Of a DNA stretch of 64,000 nt, positions 4,006 through 40,636 are shown piece by piece (position 1 is the first letter of the stretch; every line of letters starts with the position of its first letter). The translations under genes and the position numbers were made by a program. Source of the stretch: Phycicoccus sp. Soil802 (GTDB lineage Bacteria; Actinomycetota; Actinomycetes; Actinomycetales; Dermatophilaceae); contig NZ_LMSS01000003.1 of assembly GCF_001429605.1 (NCBI RefSeq), positions 466,025-530,024 of the forward strand, given 5' to 3'. The notes beneath the pieces were generated by a model. That model did no database searches and was not told where the DNA came from. It was given only the letters and a program-made list of their open reading frames with translations.

Positions 4006-6360
4006 TCAGTAGTGGGCCAGGGCCAGCTCGAGCAGCGCTGACTCGACCTCGTGGTCGAGCTCGAGCCCGCGGAGCCGGGCGGCTGCGTCCGTCGGCCCGT
4101 CAGCTTCCTTGACGAGGTCGAAGGCGGTGCGCTTGAGGTTGTGGTCCATCCGCGCCCGGTCGAGGACTTGCCGCAGCTGCTCGACGGTCCGGCTCCAGTC
4201 GAACGGCTCGACCTCGCCCAGCGTGACGGTGACGCCCGCAGTGGTGTCTACGGCGCCCAGGCTGTACCGCGTGCCGACACTGGTCGACTCGGCATCGACG
4301 CTCGTGTCGCCTTGTGTCGCAACGGCGTTGGCACCGAGCAGCACCACGGACCAGTCGCGCGAAGCGGGCAGCACGTCCGTGTCCCCGGTGGCGGGCGCCA
4401 CCGTGAGCGTCCCACTGGTGTCGTCCCAGGTGATCGTCGTGACGGCGGTGCGGGCGTCGGCGCTGCCGTCGTCCTCCACGAGCTCGAAACGACCATCCGC
4501 TCCGGGTGCGACCACCAGCTCGAGCCGATCGGGGAGCTCGGTGCCGACGTTCTGGTCCTCGCCACCGGCCAGGGGGAGGATGCCGCCGGCCCGGAGCAGG
4601 ACCGGCAGCGTCTCCATCGGGCGGTGCAGCCGGAGCTGGCGCCCGCCGCGGTAGCGCGTGCCGGTGAAGAGGTCGGTCCAGTCGCCCTCGGGCAGCCAGG
4701 CCTGCACGCTGCCGAGTCCCAGGGTGCGCTGCTGCGGGGTGGTGATAGGGGCGACGACGAGCTCGGTCCCGAACCGGAACTGCGTCGGCACGTCGTACGA
4801 CTCGTCGGCGCCGGGGTCGCCCCAGTACATCGGCTCCACCAGCGGTGCCGCGTCGCGTGCCGCCCGGGCGTTCATGGTGTGCAGGTAGGGGATCAGCCGG
4901 TGGCGCAGTCGCAGGAAGGTGTCGATGGTGGCGCGCGGCTCGGCCGGGAAGTTCCACGGCTCCTTGCGGATGAAGGGATGCAGCGACGAGTGCAGTCGCA
5001 TGATCGGCGAGAAGACGCCGAGCTGCACCCAGCGCACGGTGAGGTCGTCGTCGCGGCTGCCGTACCAGTGGCCGCCGATGTCGTGGCTCCACCAGCCGTA
5101 GCCGATGTTCGAGGCGCTCGCGGTGAAGTAAGGCTGGAAGTCGAGGGAGTCCCAGGTGATGTGGGTGTCGCCGGAGAAGCCGACGGGGTAGCGGTGGCTG
5201 CCCGGACCGGCATACCGGGAGAAGGTCAGCGGCAGCTGGCCGCGGCGCGCGGAGTCGTTGAAGTGCTCGATGTTCAACAGCCACAACGGATCCACACCGG
5301 GCGTGCGGCTGAACGAGCCCTGCTGCCAGTCCAGCCACCAGAAGTCGACGCCCTCGTCCTCGAGCGGGTGGTGGAGCCGGGTGAAGTACGACTCCATGAA
5401 GCGGGCGTCGGTGGGGTCGAACGGGATCGCTCGCTCGGTGGCCGGGTCGACACCCATGTCCTCGGCGACCTGCGGGTAGGCGTCCTCGAACGCGCGGACG
5501 CCGTCGGCCGGGTGCACGTTGAGCGTCACGGCGAGGCCGCGACGGTGCAGTTCGGCGAGGAAGGCGGGCGGGTCCGGGAAGAGGTCCTTGTTCCACGAGT
5601 AGCCAGTCCATCCCTTGCCGAACCGCGGCTCGATGTCGACCCAGTGCCAGTCCATGTCGATCACCGCGACCGACAGCGGCACCTGCTCCTTCTCGAACGC
5701 GTCCATCACCTCGAGGTACTCCGCCGCGGAGTAGGGGTGGTAGCGGCTCCACCAGTTGCCCAGCGCCCACCGGGGGAGCATCGGCACATCGCCCGACACC
5801 GCGTAGAGGTCGGCGACGGCGGCGCGGTAGTCGTGGCCACGCGCGAAGACGTAGAGGTCGGTGGCGCCTTGCTTCCGAGGTGCGGCTGCGCCGTCCTCGA
5901 TGAGGAACGACTCGGAGTCGTCGATGACCGCGATCCCGTTGCGCGACACCACTCCCGGGCCAAGCGGCACCGCCCCGTCGATGTCGTCGAGCGTGCGCGC
6001 CGTGCCGCCGAGCCCGTCGGCCGGCTCGCCGAACCGCCACTGCACGGTGTGCTCATCTGGCGTCGCCGCGATGCCAGTGACCACGAGCCCACTGGCGCTG
6101 AAGGGCAAGCCGTCATAGGCCAGGTGGAGGAAGTCGGTCGTGAGCTCGACCCGCGCGCCGTCCCGGTGCACCTCGACGTCGGGGGTGGGCAGCGCGCGGT
6201 TGACCGCGAACGTGCTGGCGCGGTCCTCGAAAGTGCCCTCGTCAGACCACTCGAGGCGCACCAGGCCGGGGGTGAGGACGGTGATCCGCCAGTGCTCGCC
6301 TTGCACGACCGAGTCGGGGTTCGCGACCGGGTTGCCGGGGACCGTGAGTCGTGAGGCCAC
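4006..6360 (-). CDS. Glycoside hydrolase family 31 (alpha-glucosidase / alpha-xylosidase type)
   Basis: A 784-aa cytoplasmic retaining alpha-glycosidase. The N-terminal beta-sandwich (about 1-190) is followed by the TIM barrel: IDMDWHW (235-240), nucleophile Asp344 in WWLDWQQG, and probable acid/base Asp398 in GFSGDTHITW. C-terminal beta domains follow, with an unusual helical extension after about residue 690 (FDWSRTVEQLRQVLDRARMD). There is no signal peptide. The GTG start has AAGGA 8 nt upstream. Substrate (maltose-, isomaltose- or xylose-linked) cannot be decided from sequence. The downstream DUF1905 gene is in the same operon. Confidence 0.9.
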   Translation of the reverse strand: MASRLTVPGNPVANPDSVVQGEHWRITVLTPGLVRLEWSDEGTFEDRASTFAVNRALPTPDVEVHRDGARVELTTDFLHLAYDGLPFSASGLVVTGIAATPDEHTVQWRFGEPADGLGGTARTLDDIDGAVPLGPGVVSRNGIAVIDDSESFLIEDGAAAPRKQGATDLYVFARGHDYRAAVADLYAVSGDVPMLPRWALGNWWSRYHPYSAAEYLEVMDAFEKEQVPLSVAVIDMDWHWVDIEPRFGKGWTGYSWNKDLFPDPPAFLAELHRRGLAVTLNVHPADGVRAFEDAYPQVAEDMGVDPATERAIPFDPTDARFMESYFTRLHHPLEDEGVDFWWLDWQQGSFSRTPGVDPLWLLNIEHFNDSARRGQLPLTFSRYAGPGSHRYPVGFSGDTHITWDSLDFQPYFTASASNIGYGWWSHDIGGHWYGSRDDDLTVRWVQLGVFSPIMRLHSSLHPFIRKEPWNFPAEPRATIDTFLRLRHRLIPYLHTMNARAARDAAPLVEPMYWGDPGADESYDVPTQFRFGTELVVAPITTPQQRTLGLGSVQAWLPEGDWTDLFTGTRYRGGRQLRLHRPMETLPVLLRAGGILPLAGGEDQNVGTELPDRLELVVAPGADGRFELVEDDGSADARTAVTTITWDDTSGTLTVAPATGDTDVLPASRDWSVVLLGANAVATQGDTSVDAESTSVGTRYSLGAVDTTAGVTVTLGEVEPFDWSRTVEQLRQVLDRARMDHNLKRTAFDLVKEADGPTDAAARLRGLELDHEVESALLELALAHY

Positions 6361-6390
6361 GGGAGCCGTCCTTCGCCATCGAGGGTGGGG

Positions 6391-6411
6391 TAGCGTGCGC
6401 GTCTCACGCTA
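6391..6411. promoter_or_regulatory. Inverted repeat in the GH31 upstream region
   Basis: TAGCGTG and CACGCTA form 7-bp arms around a 7-bp spacer, 31 bp upstream of the GH31 start. It is a possible operator; no regulator gene is adjacent, so the assignment is weak. Confidence 0.3.
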
Positions 6412-6447
6412 TCGACGCCGCCACCACCCGCAACAGGCGTGTCCCGT

Positions 6448-6897
6448 TCACCCTCTGGGCGGTCCCTCACGTTCCAGCAGCTGGTCCTCGACGACTGTGT
6501 CGGAACCAGTGAGGACATAACTGCCGATAGCTGCCTCGAAAGCGTACGTCTCTACCGTCACGGTGATCGTCGCCGGCCCGCTGTTGAAGGCGATCAGCTG
6601 CGAACGTGGCAGCCCCGCGCCTCGGGTGCCGGGGGAGGTCGTGAGGGGCTCGCCGGTGCAGTCAGGGCCGCCTTGGAATGTCGTGCCCTGCACGTGCTTC
6701 TGGCGGACGCCCAACGTGACCGTGACCACTTCACCGGGGTCGCACACGTACGTGACAGGGACCGACGCGGCATATCCGTTGGTGGTTGCTTGTCCCACAT
6801 CCACGATCGCAACCGCGGCGGATGCAGGTAACGCAACCCAGACACTGAGAGCGACCCCTACGAGAGTGCTCAAGAGTCCGCGTGCCGTCGCTCTCAT
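6448..6897 (-). CDS. Secreted hypothetical protein (149 aa)
   Basis: Starts MRATARGLLSTLVGVALSVWVALPASAA, a clear Sec signal peptide ending in AxA. The mature part (about 120 aa) is beta-rich, with two Cys (VCDPGEV and GGPDCTGE) that could form a disulfide; it resembles small immunoglobulin-like secreted proteins but no family is recognised. GGAGGAGG lies just before the ATG at 6897, so the 30-codon upstream extension is excluded. The next gene, also encoding a small secreted protein, is divergent. Confidence 0.75.
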   Translation of the reverse strand: MRATARGLLSTLVGVALSVWVALPASAAVAIVDVGQATTNGYAASVPVTYVCDPGEVVTVTLGVRQKHVQGTTFQGGPDCTGEPLTTSPGTRGAGLPRSQLIAFNSGPATITVTVETYAFEAAIGSYVLTGSDTVVEDQLLEREGPPRG

Positions 6898-7083
6898 GAC
6901 GGCCTCCTCCCCATGACAGGGCATTCGTGCGACTCCCCACAAGCCGCAGGACGGTGGGTTGCCCGAAACGGTAGAGCAGCCACCCAAGGATCACTTCGTC
7001 CTTCGGGACTACGTCTGGTGATGGTTTCTTGACTGCGGTCAAGCCTGCTTGACTCCGGGCGAGTGAGTGCTTGGAGGTTGATG

Positions 7084-7545
7084 ATGCGACGAATCATCGC
7101 TGTCGTGGTTGCGTGCGTGCTCCTGACGTTGGGTCTACCGGTAGCCGCGCAAGCTGCTGGCGGTGGCGCGACAGTCACAGGCGGCGCGATCCAGTTCCGC
7201 CTCGACACGTGCTACGAGCAGGAGGGGTGGGCGACCATCTGCCAGCAAGTGCATCTCGTGGGCAACTTTCGGGCGCTGCCGAGCGGCTCGTTCCTGATCA
7301 CGCAGGCGGTCACCAACACGATCACGATCAAGGACGTGGTGGCCCCCGGTTTGCAGGAGAGCACCACTACGGAGCAGTACGTCACCCAGCAATTCGCCAG
7401 CGTCGACTCCGCGGGTCGCTCCTTCGAGACCCACAGGACCACACTGAGCGACGGGCACTCGACGTGCACGACGACGTACACAGTCAACGTCGTGGGCGAC
7501 ACGGTAGTCGTCGCCGCCGACCCGCAAACCCGCTGCCACAGCTGA
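7084..7545 (+). CDS. Secreted hypothetical protein (153 aa)
   Basis: MRRIIAVVVACVLLTLGLPVAAQAAGG is a signal peptide cleaved after AQA. The mature protein is Thr/Val rich with four Cys (DTCYEQ, TICQQ, STCTTT and the terminal RCHS), probably disulfide bonded. No family is recognised. GGAGG lies 6 nt before the ATG at 7084; an ATG one codon earlier is possible but too close to it. The low-GC composition is unlike the neighbouring enzymes. Confidence 0.75.
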   Translation: MRRIIAVVVACVLLTLGLPVAAQAAGGGATVTGGAIQFRLDTCYEQEGWATICQQVHLVGNFRALPSGSFLITQAVTNTITIKDVVAPGLQESTTTEQYVTQQFASVDSAGRSFETHRTTLSDGHSTCTTTYTVNVVGDTVVVAADPQTRCHS

Positions 7546-33845: not shown

Positions 33846-34037
33846 TCAGCATCCAGAGCTGAGGGCGGCTTCACGCCCGGCTGACACGGTCAGCCGCGAT
33901 CGGAACTGCGACCAGCGGGCACGGCGTGCCTGCCGCTTCTCGAGTGCGAGGTCGTACGCCATTGCGTGGACTGGGTGCTGGGACTCCAGCGTCGCCACCT
34001 TGTGCACGGCCATCGTCATCGTCGTCAACTCACTCAT
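33846..34037 (-). CDS. Small hypothetical protein divergent from the OsmC operon (63 aa)
   Basis: Starts MSELTTMTMAVHKVATLESQ; the second half is very basic (ALEKRQARRARWSQFRSRL). A perfect AAGGAG lies 7 nt upstream. No family is recognised. It is transcribed away from the OsmC operon out of a shared 221-bp region. Three 11-bp-phased GCGGAAGGT boxes point toward it, so it is likely controlled by the SARP-type regulator encoded at the end of that operon. The tail ends in a single Cys (SSGC). Confidence 0.65.
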   Translation of the reverse strand: MSELTTMTMAVHKVATLESQHPVHAMAYDLALEKRQARRARWSQFRSRLTVSAGREAALSSGC

Positions 34038-34103
34038 GTCGATCTCCTTGGTCAGGCCAAGGAGCCGATCTCCTTGGTGCCTGCCGAGCAGGTTGACCGA
34101 GCG

Positions 34104-34145
34104 ACCTTCCGCAGACCTTCCGCGTCGCCGCCCCGCACCTTCCGC
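34104..34145 (-). promoter_or_regulatory. SARP-type direct repeats facing the 63-aa gene
   Basis: On the minus strand GCGGAAGGT occurs at 34145-34137, 34123-34115 and 34112-34104. Successive starts differ by 22 and 11 bp, so all lie on one face of the helix. The last copy is followed by 8 nt and CAACCT, a weak -10. The gene starts 67 bp away. Confidence 0.6.
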
Positions 34146-34169
34146 GCCGCCTGAGCGGCCGGCCAGCAG

Positions 34170-34203
34170 GCGAAAGGTCGGCGAAAGGTGCCGTTCCTAC
34201 GGT
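34170..34203 (+). promoter_or_regulatory. SARP-type direct repeats and -10 box for the OsmC operon
   Basis: GCGAAAGGT occurs at 34170-34178 and 34181-34189, an 11-bp period. Exactly 8 bp later comes TACGGT (34198-34203), a TAnnnT -10 box. Direct repeats spaced 11 bp with the last copy 8 bp before the -10 are the hallmark of SARP activator sites in Streptomyces. Confidence 0.65.
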
Positions 34204-34258: not shown

Positions 34259-34837
34259 ATGAGCAACACGGCATACGCAACCCCCGCATCCATCAACGGT
34301 GTGGACGTGGCAACCCTTTTCGCCACCCTCGACGCCGTCAAGGGACAGAACGAGATCGCCAAGTTCCAGTTCCGCGCCGAGAACACCTGGCAGACCGGCA
34401 CCCACAGCCAGTCGCGCATCCACGGTTTCTACGGCGCCGGCCAGGAGCTGACGCACACCCACGAGACGGTGCTCGACGCCGACCACCCGGTCGTCCTCAC
34501 CGGCGCCGACCACGCGCCGACGCCGGTCGAGTACCTGCTGCACGCCCTCGCCGCCTGCCTCACCGCGGGCATCGCCAACATCGCGTCGGCCAGGGGGGTG
34601 AAGCTCACCAAGGTCACCTCGACCGTGGAGGGCGACATCGACCTGCTCGGCATCCTCGGCCTGTCCGACGGCTCGGTCCGCAACGGCTACCAGGGCATCC
34701 GCGTCGAGTTCCACATCGAGGGCGACGCCGACGACGAGACCCTGCGCGGCATCGTCGAGCAGTCGCGCCGCCGCTCCGCCGTCTACGACGTGCTCACCAA
34801 CCCCACACCCGTCTCCGTCTCCGTCGTGACCGGCTGA
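34259..34837 (+). CDS. OsmC/Ohr family protein
   Basis: A 192-aa OsmC-fold protein. HPVVLTGADHAPTPVEYLLH is followed by ALAACLTAGIANIASARGVK, the classic central helix. Ohr/OsmC peroxidases use two Cys; only Cys100 (AACL) is present here and the partner position reads RIHGFYG, so hydroperoxide reduction by the standard mechanism is doubtful. First gene of an operon with two flavoproteins and a SARP-type regulator. GAAGGAGAG precedes the ATG. Confidence 0.88.
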   Translation: MSNTAYATPASINGVDVATLFATLDAVKGQNEIAKFQFRAENTWQTGTHSQSRIHGFYGAGQELTHTHETVLDADHPVVLTGADHAPTPVEYLLHALAACLTAGIANIASARGVKLTKVTSTVEGDIDLLGILGLSDGSVRNGYQGIRVEFHIEGDADDETLRGIVEQSRRRSAVYDVLTNPTPVSVSVVTG

Positions 34838-34899: not shown

Positions 34900-36183
34900 A
34901 TGCCCGCCATCGACACCGTCGTCATCGGTGCCGGCCACGCAGGTCTCGCCGTCAGCCGACTGCTGACCCTTGAAGGCCGCGACCACGTGGTCCTCGACCG
35001 CGGTCGCGTCGCCGAGAGTTGGCGCACCGCCCGTTGGGACTCCCTGCACCTGCTCACCCCCAACTGGATGGCCCGCCTGCCCGAGTGGTCCCACACCGGC
35101 CCCGACGCCGACGGCTTCATGAGCGCCTCCCAGTTCGTCCGCTACCTCGAGAGGTATGCCGCGAGCTTCAGTGCCCCGGTCCTGTCCGGTGTGCGTGTGG
35201 AGGAGGTGAGTGCAGTGGGTGACCGCTACCGCGTCGTCACCGACCGCGCGACCTGGCTCGCGCGCCACGTCGTCATCGCGACCGGACCCGGCGGCCAGCC
35301 GCGGATCCCGGCGGCCTTAGAGGGCCTCGGCGCTGACGTCCACCTGACCACCTCGGCCGACTACCGCAACACCCGGCAGGTCGCCGAGGGTGGAGTGCTG
35401 GTCGTGGGGGCCTCGGCCTCCGGTGTGCAGATCGCCGACGAGCTGGCCGCGGCCGGCCGTGAGGTCGTGGTGGCCGTGGGTCGGCACAACCGCATGCCCC
35501 GCGAGTACCGCGGCATGGACATCTACTGGTGGCTCGAGCGCACCGGCCGCACGGCCCGCACCATCGACGAGGTGCGCGACGCCGACGAGGCCCGGCGCGA
35601 GCCGTCGCTGCAGCTGATCGGCCGACGCGGCCACCACACCCAGTCCCGAAACCTCGACCTGCGCACGTTGCAGGCCAGGGGAGTCCTGCTGGCCGGTCAC
35701 CTGGTGGGAGCTGAAGGCGAACGGGTGAGCTTCGCCGACGACCTGGTCGACTCGGTCAGCGGCGCCGACAACCGGATGCACCGGTTCCTCGACACCGTCG
35801 ACCGGCACATCGACCAGAGCGGGCTGACGCGTGAGGTCTGGGCGGCCGAGCGGCCGAAAACCGTTGCGGTGCATGGCGCGCCTTCGACCTTGGACCTCGC
35901 GGCTGCGGGGATCCGGACGGTCCTGCTCGCGACTGGCTACCAGCAGAGCCACCCGTGGCTGCAGCTGCCGATCACCGCAGCCGACGGTTCGATCCGGCAG
36001 CAGCGCGGCCGGACCGAGGCCCCGGGGGTCTACGTCGTCGGCCAGCGGTTCCAGCACCGCCGCAACTCGGGGATGGTCGACGGCGCGCGGCACGACGCCG
36101 CGATGGTCGTGGCCGACCTCGTGGGCGCGGACCGAGCGGCCGTCGCCGCAAAGGATGAGCGTTGTGAAGGGAAGGCGTCATGA
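34900..36183 (+). CDS. Flavin-containing monooxygenase-like protein
   Basis: A 427-aa FAD/NAD(P)H-dependent oxidoreductase. The FAD site IDTVVIGAGHAGLAVSRLL and the second dinucleotide site GGVLVVGASASGVQIADELA are both GxGxxG/A type. ATGY near the end (LLATGYQQSHPWLQLP) is typical of flavin monooxygenases. AGAAGGAG precedes the ATG 62 bp after the OsmC gene; its stop overlaps the next gene (ATGA). Likely oxidises a small lipophilic or thiol/amine compound; substrate unknown. Confidence 0.85.
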   Translation: MPAIDTVVIGAGHAGLAVSRLLTLEGRDHVVLDRGRVAESWRTARWDSLHLLTPNWMARLPEWSHTGPDADGFMSASQFVRYLERYAASFSAPVLSGVRVEEVSAVGDRYRVVTDRATWLARHVVIATGPGGQPRIPAALEGLGADVHLTTSADYRNTRQVAEGGVLVVGASASGVQIADELAAAGREVVVAVGRHNRMPREYRGMDIYWWLERTGRTARTIDEVRDADEARREPSLQLIGRRGHHTQSRNLDLRTLQARGVLLAGHLVGAEGERVSFADDLVDSVSGADNRMHRFLDTVDRHIDQSGLTREVWAAERPKTVAVHGAPSTLDLAAAGIRTVLLATGYQQSHPWLQLPITAADGSIRQQRGRTEAPGVYVVGQRFQHRRNSGMVDGARHDAAMVVADLVGADRAAVAAKDERCEGKAS

Positions 36184-37403
36184 CCACCTACGACGCAGTC
36201 GTCGTCGGCGCCCGGGTGGCCGGCGCGTCCACCGCGATGCTGCTGGCCAGGGCCGGGGCCAGGGTGCTGCTCCTCGAGCGCAGCCCCTACGGCTCTGACA
36301 CCCTGTCGACGCACGGCCTCATGCGGGCCGGGGTCTTGCAGCTGTCGCGGTGGGGGCTGCTCGACCAGGTCGCCGCAGCCGGCACGCCGCCGGTGACGCG
36401 GACCCTGTTCCACTACCCCGGCTCCAGCCCGGTCCGGATCTCCATCCGGGCCAGCCACGGCGTGCCGGCGCTGTACGCACCGCGCCGGCACGTCCTCGAC
36501 CGGATCCTCGTCGACGCTGCCGCGGCAGCCGGGGCCGAGGTGCGGCACGGCGTCTCCGTGACCGACCTGCTCACCGACCCCGGTGGGCGGGTCACGGGCG
36601 TGCGCGGGGTCGACGCGGCCACCGGCACGTTCACGGCATACGCGAAGACCACGATCGGTGCCGACGGGATCAGGTCCACCGTCGCCTCCGCGGTGGGGGC
36701 GCCGGTCGAGCGGGCCTCGACCGCGGGCGGCGCCGTGCTCTACGGCTACTTCGACGGGCTCCCGACCGAGGGTTACGAGTGGGCCTACGGCACCGCCACC
36801 GCGGCGGGGCTGATCCCGACCAACGACGGGCAGACCTGTGTCTTCGTCGGCACCACCCCCGAGCTGCTCCGGCTGGCCCGGCGCAACGGCGCTGACGCCG
36901 CGTTCGCCGAGCTGTTCGGGAGGGCTGCACCGCTGTTGAGGGACCGGTTGGAGGCGGCGACGCGGGTGGGTCGGTTGCGCGGCTGGTCGGGGCAGCGCGG
37001 GCACGTGCGTCGGTCGCACGGCCCCGGGTGGGCCCTGGTGGGTGACGCCGGCTACTTCCGCGACCCGATCACGACGCACGGCATGACCGACGCGCTGCGC
37101 GACGCCGAGCTGCTCGCCGACGGCCTGCTGGCGACGTGGGCCGGCGAGCAGTCCGAGGCCGTCGCCCTATCCGGCTACCAGGCCAAGCGCGACCGGCTGT
37201 CGTCGCAGCTGTTCGACGTGAGCGACCGCATCGCCGGGTACGGCTGGGACTCCGCCGAGATCCAGCAGCTGCTGCGCGAGGTCAGCTCCGCCATGAGCGA
37301 CGAGGTCGGGCTGCTCCAGTCCCTGCCGCCGCGACTGGCGCGCCCGGTTGCCACCGGTTTGGGCGAGCTTGTCTCGGCTGACATGCCTGGCACCGGTCGC
37401 TAG
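36180..37403 (+). CDS. FAD-dependent oxidoreductase (aromatic hydroxylase / geranylgeranyl reductase type)
   Basis: A 407-aa flavoprotein with TYDAVVVGARVAGASTAMLL (FAD ADP-binding), YAPRRHVLDRILVDAAAAAG (DG-like region) and ALVGDAGYFRDPITTHGMTD, the GD motif that binds the FAD ribityl chain. This is the PHBH / GGR fold. Translationally coupled to the preceding monooxygenase gene. With that gene it could perform consecutive oxidations in one pathway. Confidence 0.85.
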   Translation: MTTYDAVVVGARVAGASTAMLLARAGARVLLLERSPYGSDTLSTHGLMRAGVLQLSRWGLLDQVAAAGTPPVTRTLFHYPGSSPVRISIRASHGVPALYAPRRHVLDRILVDAAAAAGAEVRHGVSVTDLLTDPGGRVTGVRGVDAATGTFTAYAKTTIGADGIRSTVASAVGAPVERASTAGGAVLYGYFDGLPTEGYEWAYGTATAAGLIPTNDGQTCVFVGTTPELLRLARRNGADAAFAELFGRAAPLLRDRLEAATRVGRLRGWSGQRGHVRRSHGPGWALVGDAGYFRDPITTHGMTDALRDAELLADGLLATWAGEQSEAVALSGYQAKRDRLSSQLFDVSDRIAGYGWDSAEIQQLLREVSSAMSDEVGLLQSLPPRLARPVATGLGELVSADMPGTGR

Positions 37404-37462
37404 CGTTGAAGACCTTTCTGGAAGACGTCACAGACGGCAGACGGCACAGATCGGCACCGGCC

Positions 37463-40400
37463 ATGGATGCGCGCATCAGCCTCCTCGGAGGTTTCGCGGT
37501 ATCAGTCGGCGGCTCCGTGGTCACCGACCAGCAGTGGAGCCGCCGCAATGCCAGCGCGCTGGTTAAGGTGCTCGCCCTGACCGCGGGTCGCCGGCTGCAC
37601 CGGGAGCAGGTCATCGACCTGCTCTGGCCCGACCTGTCGCCGGAACAGGCCGGGCCACGACTCCACCAGGCTGCCCACTACGCGCGACGGGCGTTGGGAG
37701 AGGCCGGGCAGGGCGTCGTGCTGCGCCACGACTTCGTCGAGCTCCTGCCGGACAGCGACGTCGCCATCGACGCCGTCGACTTCCGCGCGGCTGCCGAGGC
37801 AGCGCTCGCGGGATCTGACGGTGGGGCGGGTGCGGCGACCGCTGCCCTCGAGCTCTACGGCGGGGTGCTGCTGCCCGACGACCTCTACGAGCCGTGGGCC
37901 GAGGAGCACCGGGAGTCGCTGGCCCTGCTCCACCGCGAGCTCCTGCGGGTCAGCGGGCGCTGGGAGGAGCTGGTGGCGGCCGACCCCGCCGACGAGCAGG
38001 CGCACCTGACCCTCGCGCGGGCCCACGCCGATCGCGGTGACGTCAGGGCGGCGCTGCGTCAGCTCGAGCGGCTCGAGCTGGTCCTGCGGCGCGAGCTCGG
38101 CACGGCGCCGGGAGTCGAGGCCGAGTCGCTGCGCGCCGAGCTGATGGCCATGGGGGCCGAGTCCACCCCCACCGGATCGGCCCCGACCGAGACCGCAGCG
38201 ACCGAACCGCGTCGGCTGGTCGGGCGCCGGGCAGTGGGCGACGCCCTCCGCGAGCGGATCGCCGCGGCCCAAGGCGGGCGCGGCGGGGCCGTGCTGATCT
38301 CCGGACCGCCGGGAGTCGGCAAGTCGAGCGTGCTCGACCTCGCGGACGTGCTGGCCCAACGGGCCGGCTGGCGCACCGGTCGCGGCACGGCGTCGGCGGT
38401 CGAAGGGCCGTGGCCCTACGCCCCGGTGCTCGAGGCGCTCGGCGACCTGAGCCGCCGGCACCCGGCGCTGCTCGACGGGCTCGACGACCGCTACCGCCAG
38501 GAGCTGGACCGAGCCCTGTCCGAGCGCCAGGTGAGCTGGTCGGGGGAGAGCGCCCACCAGCGGCTCTTCGTCGCTGCCGCCGAGCTGCTGCGGCTCGGGG
38601 CCGCCGGCCGCGGCCTGCTGCTGGTCGTCGACGACGTGCACGAGGCCGACGAGGCATCACTGCGACTGCTCCACTACCTCGCACGCTGCGCGGCCACCGA
38701 CCAGGTGTTGCTGGTGCTGGCGCACCGGCCCACCCACAACCCGGCGCTAGAGGAGGTCCACACCAGCCTGGTCGCACGCGGCATGGGGTCCCGCATCGAC
38801 CTCGGCCCGCTCACCGAGTCGGCCACCCGGCGCCTGCTCGCCGAACGCTTCCCCGACCTCGACGAGCCCACCCAGCACCACATCTGGGCCGTCAGCGGCG
38901 GGCTACCCTTCACGGCCCTCGAGCTCGGTGCGGCAGCGGCGACCGGACGGGAGCCGGCGACGATCTCCAACGTCCCGCCCGACGCCCTGCGGGCCCTGCA
39001 GCGCGCCGCCCTGCTCGGGCTGTCGTTCACCACCGACGAGTTCCTCGCGGTGGCGGGGGTGGGTGAGGCAGAGGCCTACGAGCACCTCGAGATCGCGCAG
39101 GCCTGTCTCGTGGTGGAGTGGTCCGAGACCGGCTACCAGTTCCGCCACGCCTTGGTGCGCGAGGCGGTGCTGGAGAGCCTGCCGCCCACCGCGCGGAGCG
39201 CAGCCCGGGTCGAGGTGGCTCGGGAGCTGGCGCGGCTCGGTGCCCCGCCCGCCCGCATCGCGCACCAGTACCTCGCCGCAGGCCAGCCGCGCCAGGCCAT
39301 CCCCTACGTGCTCCCGGCCGTGGAGACCTCTGGCGCCCTCGGTGCCTACCGTGACGCCCTCATCCTGGTCGACGGGGTCCTGGACTTCGCGACGGGCGAG
39401 GTGCGCGGCCACCTCCTGGCCCGGCGCGGCGATCTGCTCACTGCACTGGGCGACCCTGCGTCGGTGGAGAGCTACCGGGCTGCGGTGCCCCTGACGACAG
39501 GGATGGAGCACCGGCTCGTCCGCGCCCGGCTGGCCCGCGCGGCGTGCTTCGCCAGCGACCTCGACACGGCCCGCTCGGCCCTCGCCGGGCTCGAGCTGCT
39601 GGATGACGAGGCGGACGGGCCGATCATGCTGGCCCGGGGCAACCTCGCCTACTTCAGCGGTGACATCGACGGAGCGTGGGACCACGCTGTGGGAGCGCGG
39701 CAGTCGCTGCTGACCGACAAGGACCCGTGGCGTTACGTCGACCTGATCGCCCTGCAGGGCATGATCGCCCACCAGCGGGGGGAGTGGTTCGAGCGCTTCC
39801 GCTCCCACCTCCGCCGCACGGTCACCGACGCAGGACTCACCACCGCCCTCTTCGACGCCCACCTGTGCGTCGCCGAGTACCTCCTCTACGGGGGCGTGCC
39901 CTACCCGGAGGTCATCGAGCTGGCCAGGACCTTGCGCCTGCGCTCCCAGCAGTTCGGTGCGCTGCGCGGGGTGGCGTTCACGACGGCCCTGATCGGGGAG
40001 GCGGCGCTGCTGATGGGCGACCTCGACCTCGCCGAGCGCGAGCTGCAGGAGGCGGTCGACCTCCACCGCGACTCCGATGCCCCGGCGGGGGAGGCCCATG
40101 CGCTCCAACGGCTCGCCGAGGTGCGCCTCGCGCAAGGCGACCGCGACGAGGCGGGCAGGCTGCTCCACCAGGCGCTCCCGCTGGCCCGCTGGTCCATCAT
40201 CAGGATGCACCTGCTCCAGCGGATCCATGGCTCGCTGGTGCTCGCCGCCCCGGACCCCACCGCAGCCCGTGCCGCGGTCGAACGCGCCGAAGCGAGCCTG
40301 GGCGACACCGACCGGTGCCCGTTCTGCGCCGTGACCTTCGAGGTCCCCGCCACCATCGCCTGTGCGGATGCCGGCGACCTCCCCGCGGCTGAGCGCCACC

Positions 40401-40636
40401 TCGCCGCCGCCGAGGAGTCGGCCGCCAGGTGGGAGGGCACGGCGTGGCCGGCGGCCGTGCTCGAGGCGAAGGCCCACCTCGCCATTGCGGTCGGCGAGCC
40501 CGACGACGCCGCGAGCCTGTTCGCCGAGGCGACCGACCTGTTCGGCAGTGCCGGCCAGGTGCTCGACGCCGCGCGGTGCGCCGCCCAGGGCTCGATGCGG
40601 GTCACGTCGCGTCCGGCCAGCCCCACGAAGGCGTAA
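37463..40636 (+). CDS. Large SARP-type regulator with AAA ATPase and TPR domains
   Basis: A 1057-aa AfsR-like activator. The winged-helix DNA-binding domain (MDARISLLGGFAVSVGG to about 90, with LHREQVIDLLWPDLSPEQAG) is followed by the bacterial transcriptional activation domain to about 240. The AAA module has Walker A GPPGVGKSS and Walker B LLLVVDDVHEAD. The rest is helical TPR-like repeats (AHLAIAVGEPDDAASLFAEA). The ATG at 37463 is preferred over an upstream TTG; neither has a strong ribosome site. Fourth gene of the OsmC cluster, 59 bp after the flavoprotein, and the likely binder of the 11-bp-phased repeats upstream of the cluster. Confidence 0.88.
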   Translation: MDARISLLGGFAVSVGGSVVTDQQWSRRNASALVKVLALTAGRRLHREQVIDLLWPDLSPEQAGPRLHQAAHYARRALGEAGQGVVLRHDFVELLPDSDVAIDAVDFRAAAEAALAGSDGGAGAATAALELYGGVLLPDDLYEPWAEEHRESLALLHRELLRVSGRWEELVAADPADEQAHLTLARAHADRGDVRAALRQLERLELVLRRELGTAPGVEAESLRAELMAMGAESTPTGSAPTETAATEPRRLVGRRAVGDALRERIAAAQGGRGGAVLISGPPGVGKSSVLDLADVLAQRAGWRTGRGTASAVEGPWPYAPVLEALGDLSRRHPALLDGLDDRYRQELDRALSERQVSWSGESAHQRLFVAAAELLRLGAAGRGLLLVVDDVHEADEASLRLLHYLARCAATDQVLLVLAHRPTHNPALEEVHTSLVARGMGSRIDLGPLTESATRRLLAERFPDLDEPTQHHIWAVSGGLPFTALELGAAAATGREPATISNVPPDALRALQRAALLGLSFTTDEFLAVAGVGEAEAYEHLEIAQACLVVEWSETGYQFRHALVREAVLESLPPTARSAARVEVARELARLGAPPARIAHQYLAAGQPRQAIPYVLPAVETSGALGAYRDALILVDGVLDFATGEVRGHLLARRGDLLTALGDPASVESYRAAVPLTTGMEHRLVRARLARAACFASDLDTARSALAGLELLDDEADGPIMLARGNLAYFSGDIDGAWDHAVGARQSLLTDKDPWRYVDLIALQGMIAHQRGEWFERFRSHLRRTVTDAGLTTALFDAHLCVAEYLLYGGVPYPEVIELARTLRLRSQQFGALRGVAFTTALIGEAALLMGDLDLAERELQEAVDLHRDSDAPAGEAHALQRLAEVRLAQGDRDEAGRLLHQALPLARWSIIRMHLLQRIHGSLVLAAPDPTAARAAVERAEASLGDTDRCPFCAVTFEVPATIACADAGDLPAAERHLAAAEESAARWEGTAWPAAVLEAKAHLAIAVGEPDDAASLFAEATDLFGSAGQVLDAARCAAQGSMRVTSRPASPTKA

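Follow-up and report, generated by a model that had tools for sequence, protein, structure and literature searches.

The 100 bp from 34104 to 34203 of the window, as the whole 64,000-nucleotide stretch of Phycicoccus sp. Soil802 DNA under analysis is called here, are, judging by their sequence, a real and conserved control region of the SARP type that is two-way in its anatomy. The right arm of this region faces an operon encoding an OsmC-family protein, two flavoproteins (FMO and FAD3) and a regulator; it is well supported and is likely to be a SARP promoter read by the operon's own SARP. The left arm, facing a 63-aa ORF, is plausible.

The divergent control region and its operon

The features of the control region and of the genes on its two sides were as follows:

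33846..34037, minus strand: 63-aa ORF, an orphan, with a good Shine-Dalgarno sequence and a borderline coding score
34038..34078, minus strand: leader preceding the 63-aa ORF, able to fold into either of two 8-bp hairpins, one of them over the Shine-Dalgarno sequence
34090..34095, minus strand: putative −10 CAACCT, weak, 8 bp beyond the last left-facing box, read from the sequence
34104..34112, minus strand: left-facing box 3, nearest to the −10, GCGGAAGGT, by sequence
34115..34123, minus strand: left-facing box 2, GCGGAAGGT, with box 3 at 11 bp
34137..34145, minus strand: left-facing box 1, GCGGAAGGT, with box 2 at 22 bp, one register being skipped
34170..34178, plus strand: right-facing box 1, GCGAAAGGT, by sequence
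34181..34189, plus strand: right-facing box 2, GCGAAAGGT, 11 bp from right-facing box 1
34198..34203, plus strand: putative −10 TACGGT, 8 bp beyond right-facing box 2, a match to the full pattern
34259..34837, plus strand: OsmC-family protein of 192 aa with a single cysteine (OsmC domain, 71.1 bits)
34900..36183, plus strand: FMO, a pyridine-nucleotide/FAD monooxygenase-like flavoprotein (Pyr_redox_3; a relative of TIGR04046 that stays under the cut-off of that family)
36180..37403, plus strand: FAD3, an FAD_binding_3 oxidoreductase, by Pfam match
37406..40636, plus strand: SARP-BTAD-AAA_16-TPR regulator, open frame from TTG 37406, by Pfam and model

In PMC10936776, SARP promoters are described as carrying direct repeats 11 or 22 bp apart, the last of which lies 8 bp from the −10. 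The repeats in the window are separated by 11 and 22 bp in the left set and by 11 bp in the right set, and on both sides the 3' repeat stands 8 bp from a putative −10, the left hexamer being poor and both assignments being guesses from the sequence. The five boxes, three left-facing and two right-facing, which the sequence-only reading had reported, are present and placed as it claimed, and so is the 8-bp distance between the outer box of each set and a −10-like hexamer. Its 11-bp phasing within each set is true of the right set, but in the left set one interval of 11 bp is followed by one of 22 bp. Between the nearer box and the start codon there are 69 and 66 bases on the two sides, which agrees with the reported distances of 70 and 67 when these are counted by difference.

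The motif GCGRAAGGT occurs in the window five times, every time inside 34104-34203, compared with a mean of 1.10 and a maximum of 4 in 100 shuffles. The perfect tandem GCGRAAGGT-NN-GCGRAAGGT was detected in one of the 297 genomes of the order sample, the window genome itself, and in none of the 296 others.

Ohr/OsmC peroxidases use two redox cysteines. The operon's protein shares the OsmC domain with these thiol peroxidases but has one cysteine, invariant across 14 aligned OsmC sequences, and is therefore not a classic two-cysteine peroxidase. The FMO matched the MSMEG_0569 flavoprotein family (TIGR04046) with 325.6 bits, under the curated cut-off of 498.35, and was not assigned to it.

The regulator gene preferably starts at ATG 37463, judging by the point at which homology sets in; neither this codon nor TTG 37406 is preceded by a clear Shine-Dalgarno sequence. 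With Pfam, the regulator matched BTAD (25.5 bits against a cut-off of 22.1), AAA_16 (81 bits) and TPR families; NB-ARC was not among the families found up to an E of 0.001. The model of the SARP domain, comprising the first 236 residues from ATG 37463 and based on a 16-sequence alignment, had a mean pLDDT of 93.4, and in a Foldseek comparison with solved structures its top six chains were AfsR and EmbR (E < 1e-6, TMq 0.66-0.71). A profile search with the same domain reached EmbR at 1.9e-6 and AfsR at 1.4e-4, three engineered TPR proteins scoring higher, and a single-sequence phmmer search returned nothing up to E 0.01. On the strength of the model, the operon regulator is a SARP in fold, with an N-terminal winged-helix domain and a BTAD. 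AfsR has the architecture SARP, NB-ARC and TPR. The operon regulator does not share it as a whole, so the label "AfsR-like" given to it earlier suits the DNA-binding half, which has the AfsR/EmbR fold, but not the other half, in which AAA_16 and TPR were matched and NB-ARC was not.

Conservation of the boxes and the SARPs that accompany them

A search with an OsmC alignment yielded 431 relatives, the best 80 named loci of which were retained. Seventeen of the 80 loci, with a SARP match at tblastn E < 1e-25 near OsmC, formed the SARP group. The weaker SARP matches of L080 and L082, on the other strand, were counted as non-SARP, and the pair of boxes is absent from both; in L082 (3340-3742, minus strand) the SARP match falls into two overlapping pieces, perhaps owing to a frameshift or an assembly error. 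The order OsmC–FAD3–SARP on one strand was found in 16 of the 17 SARP loci, with FMO between OsmC and FAD3 in 12 of these 16, and the AAA and TPR parts of the regulator were also matched in 12/17. The hosts are Nocardioides, Kribbella, Phytoactinopolyspora, Actinomadura, Acrocarpospora, Microbispora, Actinoplanes, an acidimicrobiian and two metagenome bins.

The lack of box conservation in related loci had been named beforehand as grounds for rejecting the proposal, and the boxes proved conserved. The 11-bp-phased pair RAAGG-N6-RAAGG, facing OsmC within 300 bp upstream, was present in 12/17 SARP loci versus 2/62 others (Fisher 9.5e-9), where the RAAGG core had been widened after inspection of the 17 SARP-group upstream regions and then used unchanged on both groups, where one of the 63 non-SARP loci was left out for too little upstream DNA, and where the loci are not independent (L069/L070 and L086/L088 are close pairs). 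Since 17 of the 63 non-SARP loci are short, the count was also limited in that group to loci with at least 5 kb downstream, which gave 1/46 (2.7e-8). With the following TANNNT included, the figures were 10/17 versus 2/62, and with pairs counted anywhere in the locus 15/17 versus 6/63. Control spacings of 9, 10 and 13 gave 0 in both groups, and a spacing of 12 gave 1/17 on each strand and 0/62. The consensus of 18 sites is GGGGGAAGG....GGGAAGG.GG.C.TCCTAGCGT, and the −10 is mostly TAGCGT/TACGGT-like.

Exceptions occurred in both groups. In the non-SARP locus L072 the contig ends inside the FMO gene, and L099 (Frankia), with a perfect site and no SARP match in its 14.5 kb, is a true exception. 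Five SARP loci did not show the strict pair toward OsmC: in L069 the repeats are 22 bp apart, in L070 they contain one mismatch, and L075, L079 and L115 each have pairs in the locus but none within 300 bp of OsmC, those of L079 standing before the MaoC gene that precedes OsmC. In two Microbispora loci, an extra strong site was noticed at the end of the SARP gene (L086 12007, plus strand, score 41.0; L088 11988, plus strand, score 39.6), facing a protein of roughly 200 aa with a likely signal peptide. This last assignment, like all those marked below as made by eye, was made without a search.

The SARPs linked to the boxes form a group in a quickly built tree that carries no support values, and their recognition helix has the form PRLHKAAHYARR, with variations. 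This grouping, together with the helix, is the best sequence evidence for the operon SARP as the reader of the boxes. The small SARP of L049 lies outside the group, has a similar helix and is divergent from OsmC–FMO, and an 11-bp-phased GGAAGG pair stands there 8 bp ahead of GAGGGT. Among less related SARPs (39-49 % identical) the pair was found in 1/29 loci, a count that covers 29 of the 42 non-own SARP matches with at most about 1.5 kb on each side, some clipped by contig ends, so that farther promoters would have escaped notice; the idea that every SARP uses GRAAGG boxes was therefore dropped. Helix and box associate only loosely, since L159, L164 and L167, whose helices are fairly similar, lack the pair in their fetched DNA. 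A further BTAD match in the window genome (C7:2-232) is truncated by the contig end.

The left arm was examined against the same loci. The sequence-only reading had described control in both directions; the left boxes and their 8-bp spacing fit this, but the left arm is the weaker one, with a poor −10, an orphan ORF and a borderline coding score. The left-facing site scored 9.1 in a promoter matrix, the second best score in the window, versus 34-46 for the sites used to build the matrix, whose own scores are circular as 15 of the 18 pattern-chosen sites went into it. CAACCT at the identical spacing recurs in L079 (6470+). A strict left-facing pair within 300 bp upstream of OsmC was found in 1/17 SARP loci, and L067, L076, L079 and L131 also contain left-facing pairs, not all of them perfect. 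The gene they face is MaoC in L131 and an ABC-ATPase-like frame, by eye, in L076; in two Nocardioides, L067 (frame 6187-7113, minus strand) and L079 (5621-6259, minus strand), the boxes face a gene resembling a GNAT acetyltransferase, also by eye.

The 63-aa ORF has a clear AAGGAG Shine-Dalgarno sequence, and its coding score of 0.218 is the highest among the six frames and falls between the 5th percentile of true genes (0.177) and the 95th percentile of wrong frames (0.23), where the two ranges overlap. No homologue was found in the 98 other genomes of the family sample (99 with its own, which gave the self-match only), the best of the matches listed among the fetched loci had an E of only 0.21, and no Pfam or NCBIfam family was matched; a conserved 63-aa partner was thus found neither in the family sample nor in the fetched loci. 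On the minus strand of the leader (34038-34078), CCAAGGAG, CTCCTTGG and again CCAAGGAG follow one another and can form two alternative 8-bp hairpins, the second of which masks the Shine-Dalgarno sequence. The RNA fold of the leader has a z of -2.81, with 1 of 200 shuffles equally stable. In this single case, the alternative hairpins may serve translational control of the 63-aa ORF.

The second locus on contig C5

The full promoter pattern, RAAGG-N6-RAAGG-N9-TANNNT, was found at two places in the window genome, the control region and a site on contig C5, and the reversed control gave 0. A weak match at C6 (L005, 2 mismatches) was not counted. The C5 site is as follows:

C5:432398-432454 of the window genome (= L006 8399-8455), both ways: another divergent region with SARP boxes, flanked by a MaoC-like gene and a SARP–alpha/beta-hydrolase gene

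On one side of this divergent region the boxes face the MaoC-like gene and on the other the SARP–alpha/beta-hydrolase gene (a 557-aa frame), the boxes facing the SARP having a poor matrix score of -1.6. The C5 SARP was placed by the unsupported tree among the box-linked SARPs, on a long branch. The module had been called self-contained, which does not hold, as the full promoter pattern recurs here before a MaoC-like gene and beside a second SARP.

A close relative of MaoC stands directly behind FAD3 of OsmC–FMO–FAD3 in 7 of the 80 loci, none of them actinobacterial (L096, L100, L102, L112, L128, L130 and L140), and a MaoC relative is present somewhere in the locus in 15/80. When the window genome was searched with the MaoC of L130, the C5 gene was returned at 1.8e-53 and the next best match at 4.5e-6. 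Given the shared boxes at C5 and the MaoC genes behind FAD3, the OsmC–FMO–FAD3–MaoC module seems, on sequence grounds, to be divided between two loci and coordinated through the shared boxes. OsmC, FMO, FAD3 and MaoC probably act jointly on one small organic compound, perhaps an acyl or aromatic one.

In L067 (Nocardioides jiangsuensis), the closest relative, with an OsmC 85 % identical, a MaoC gene (4102-4524) and a BTAD–hydrolase regulator gene (about 4538-6043) both adjoin the OsmC operon, less than 3 kb from the OsmC start. A weak site (score 12.4) lies upstream of this MaoC gene, and the hydrolases of L067 and C5 share only 30 % identity. In L103 (1350-2523, Streptosporangiaceae) a MaoC relative was noticed divergent from another SARP, as at C5, with a different helix and no listed site.

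Sixteen proteins related to the C5 hydrolase domain, with an identity of 42 % or more, were found near OsmC in 14 of the 80 loci. Pfam scans of 10 of these 16 proteins revealed a DNA-binding family in seven (six Trans_reg_C and one GerE), AAA_16 in two (L110 and L124) and the hydrolase alone in one (L102). In L110 (10143-14402, minus strand) and L124 (9611-14530, plus strand), near OsmC, alpha/beta-hydrolase and AAA_16 thus lie in one chain by Pfam, and by eye both chains also contain SARP-like and cyclase-like parts. Eight genomes chosen for a hydrolase near OsmC held 1-2 copies each. In 396 genomes of the phylum, the hydrolase domain was found in 8 and OsmC in 19, with the window genome as the only one common to both, provided that the two counts drew on the same 396 genomes, as they apparently did, judging from the handles; the notion that hydrolase-fused regulators always accompany OsmC was rejected on this count. 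The fetched DNA of the eight hydrolase loci outside the window genome (L188-L195, from 7 genomes) contained no match to OsmC, FMO or MaoC, and L190 was the sole one with a match to FAD3, a weak one (28 %, 5.8e-5).

RsbQ-like and strigolactone-type hydrolases act as small-molecule receptors, and by analogy the hydrolase of the C5 SARP may be one. The neighbourhood in L067 and the hydrolase–AAA_16 chains of L110 and L124 fit sensors of one pathway. Tentatively, a module of four enzymes that are adjacent in other phyla would be split here, and two sister SARPs, one sensing through an ATPase/TPR half and the other through an alpha/beta-hydrolase half, would read the same boxes and let two signals act on a single regulon.

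Proposed mechanism and known SARP systems

The control region would be formed by two SARP-type promoters placed back to back. The last gene of the right-hand operon encodes a SARP domain whose dimers are expected to bind the direct repeats (core GRAAGG, 11-bp phase), which would replace the −35 element 8 bp ahead of the −10, and to recruit RNA polymerase for transcription of OsmC–FMO–FAD3–SARP. The regulator would in this way activate its own operon, an autoregulation suggested by the gene order, and its AAA_16/TPR half would likely be a signal-gated switch. The left-facing boxes would direct a second, probably weaker start toward the orphan ORF, and the regulon would include the distant C5 locus, with the same kind of boxes facing the MaoC-like enzyme beside the related SARP–alpha/beta-hydrolase; cross-talk between the two SARPs could follow from these shared boxes.

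The probability given above to reading by the operon's own SARP stands beside those of the alternatives and is not to be set off against them, as one-way control and reading by the C5 SARP contest other parts of the proposal and do not all exclude its core. That control is one-way, the right-facing pair alone being functional, the left boxes being extra sites or remnants that aid cooperative loading and the 63-aa ORF being unregulated or no gene at all, is a possibility of some weight, though it is the less probable view. It agrees with the weak left −10 and the low matrix score of that site, with the borderline coding score and lack of homologues of the ORF and with the rarity of strict left-facing pairs upstream of OsmC. 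It fits poorly with three perfect left boxes at the exact 8-bp spacing, with the box and CAACCT 8 bp apart before MaoC-OsmC in L079, with the left-facing pairs of four other loci and the boxes facing both ways at C5, and with the clear AAGGAG of the ORF. It is unlikely that the boxes are read mainly by the hydrolase-fused C5 SARP, with the operon's SARP regulating something else or only modulating: although that protein adjoins boxes almost identical to these, its recognition helix is similar, and its hydrolase-domain relatives recur near OsmC, mostly with a DNA-binding family in those scanned and in one or two copies in the eight chosen genomes, the boxes are conserved in genera whose operon includes the SARP gene, and among the 396 phylum genomes hydrolase and OsmC coincide in the window genome only.

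Chance or low-complexity repeats in G+C-rich DNA are a scarcely credible source of the boxes. Three of the seven GRAAGG-N5-GRAAGG matches in the window genome are indeed located within long open frames, and the reversed control yielded 3 as well; but the perfect pair is confined to a single genome of the order sample, the full pattern is found at two SARP-linked loci of the window genome only, and for the right-facing pair the comparison of SARP and non-SARP groups speaks strongly against it.

If the operon's own SARP reads the right-facing boxes as proposed, a SARP group with a box of its own would control redox enzymes that form a conserved set in actinobacteria such as Nocardioides, Kribbella, Microbispora and Actinoplanes. 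A direct handle is provided by this box: a regulon can be predicted from it, it ties together two loci that are not linked, and it opens the function of the widespread OsmC–flavoprotein–MaoC module to testing; pairs of box and recognition helix could extend a specificity code for SARPs. In the literature consulted, SARPs figure chiefly as switches for antibiotic clusters. No description of a SARP with an OsmC operon was recognised from titles and the beginnings of abstracts in the open-access literature, and none of the regulator clade, the box or the enzyme set was found there, so they are apparently undescribed; the accessible part of PMC3936707 mentions both SARP and OsmC, separately.

EmbR ends in an FHA domain. 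The DNA-binding/BTAD fold of the operon regulator is the same as in EmbR of Mycobacterium tuberculosis (2fez, 2ff4; TMq 0.66-0.68), whereas in place of the C-terminal FHA domain the operon regulator matches AAA_16 and TPR. With AfsR/afsS of Streptomyces coelicolor (8hvr, 8k60) the window has in common the SARP DNA-binding and BTAD fold and the 11-bp repeats before a −10. According to PMC10936776, the 11-bp direct repeats of the afsS promoter overlap the −35 and precede a poor −10, and the box covering the −35 is engaged jointly by the SARP dimer and sigma region 4. The window repeat differs from the AfsR repeat, given as CGTT(T/C)ATCGNN in PMC10972967, the C-terminal half matches AAA_16 and TPR families but not NB-ARC (a part that the literature on AfsR names NOD), and the target is an enzyme operon.

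The SARP-LAL regulators PimR, SanG and PolR are likewise large SARPs with an ATPase half that use two or three 11-bp-phased repeats at intergenic sites. The PimR site lies between the counterparts of pimM and pimR in relatives (PMC5930380, PMC10972967) and the SanG site between sanO and sanN (PMC10972967), so SARP sites in such intergenic regions are not new. The PimR operator is composed of CGGCAAG heptamers with 4-bp spacers (PMC5930380) and the SARP-LAL systems serve antibiotic clusters, whereas the boxes of the window are GCGRAAGGT and the consensus of its relatives is GGGAAGG. Compared with known SARPs, the mechanism proposed here is thus known in kind, and the differences are the GGGAAGG box, the sensor half, the enzyme set and the layout over two loci.
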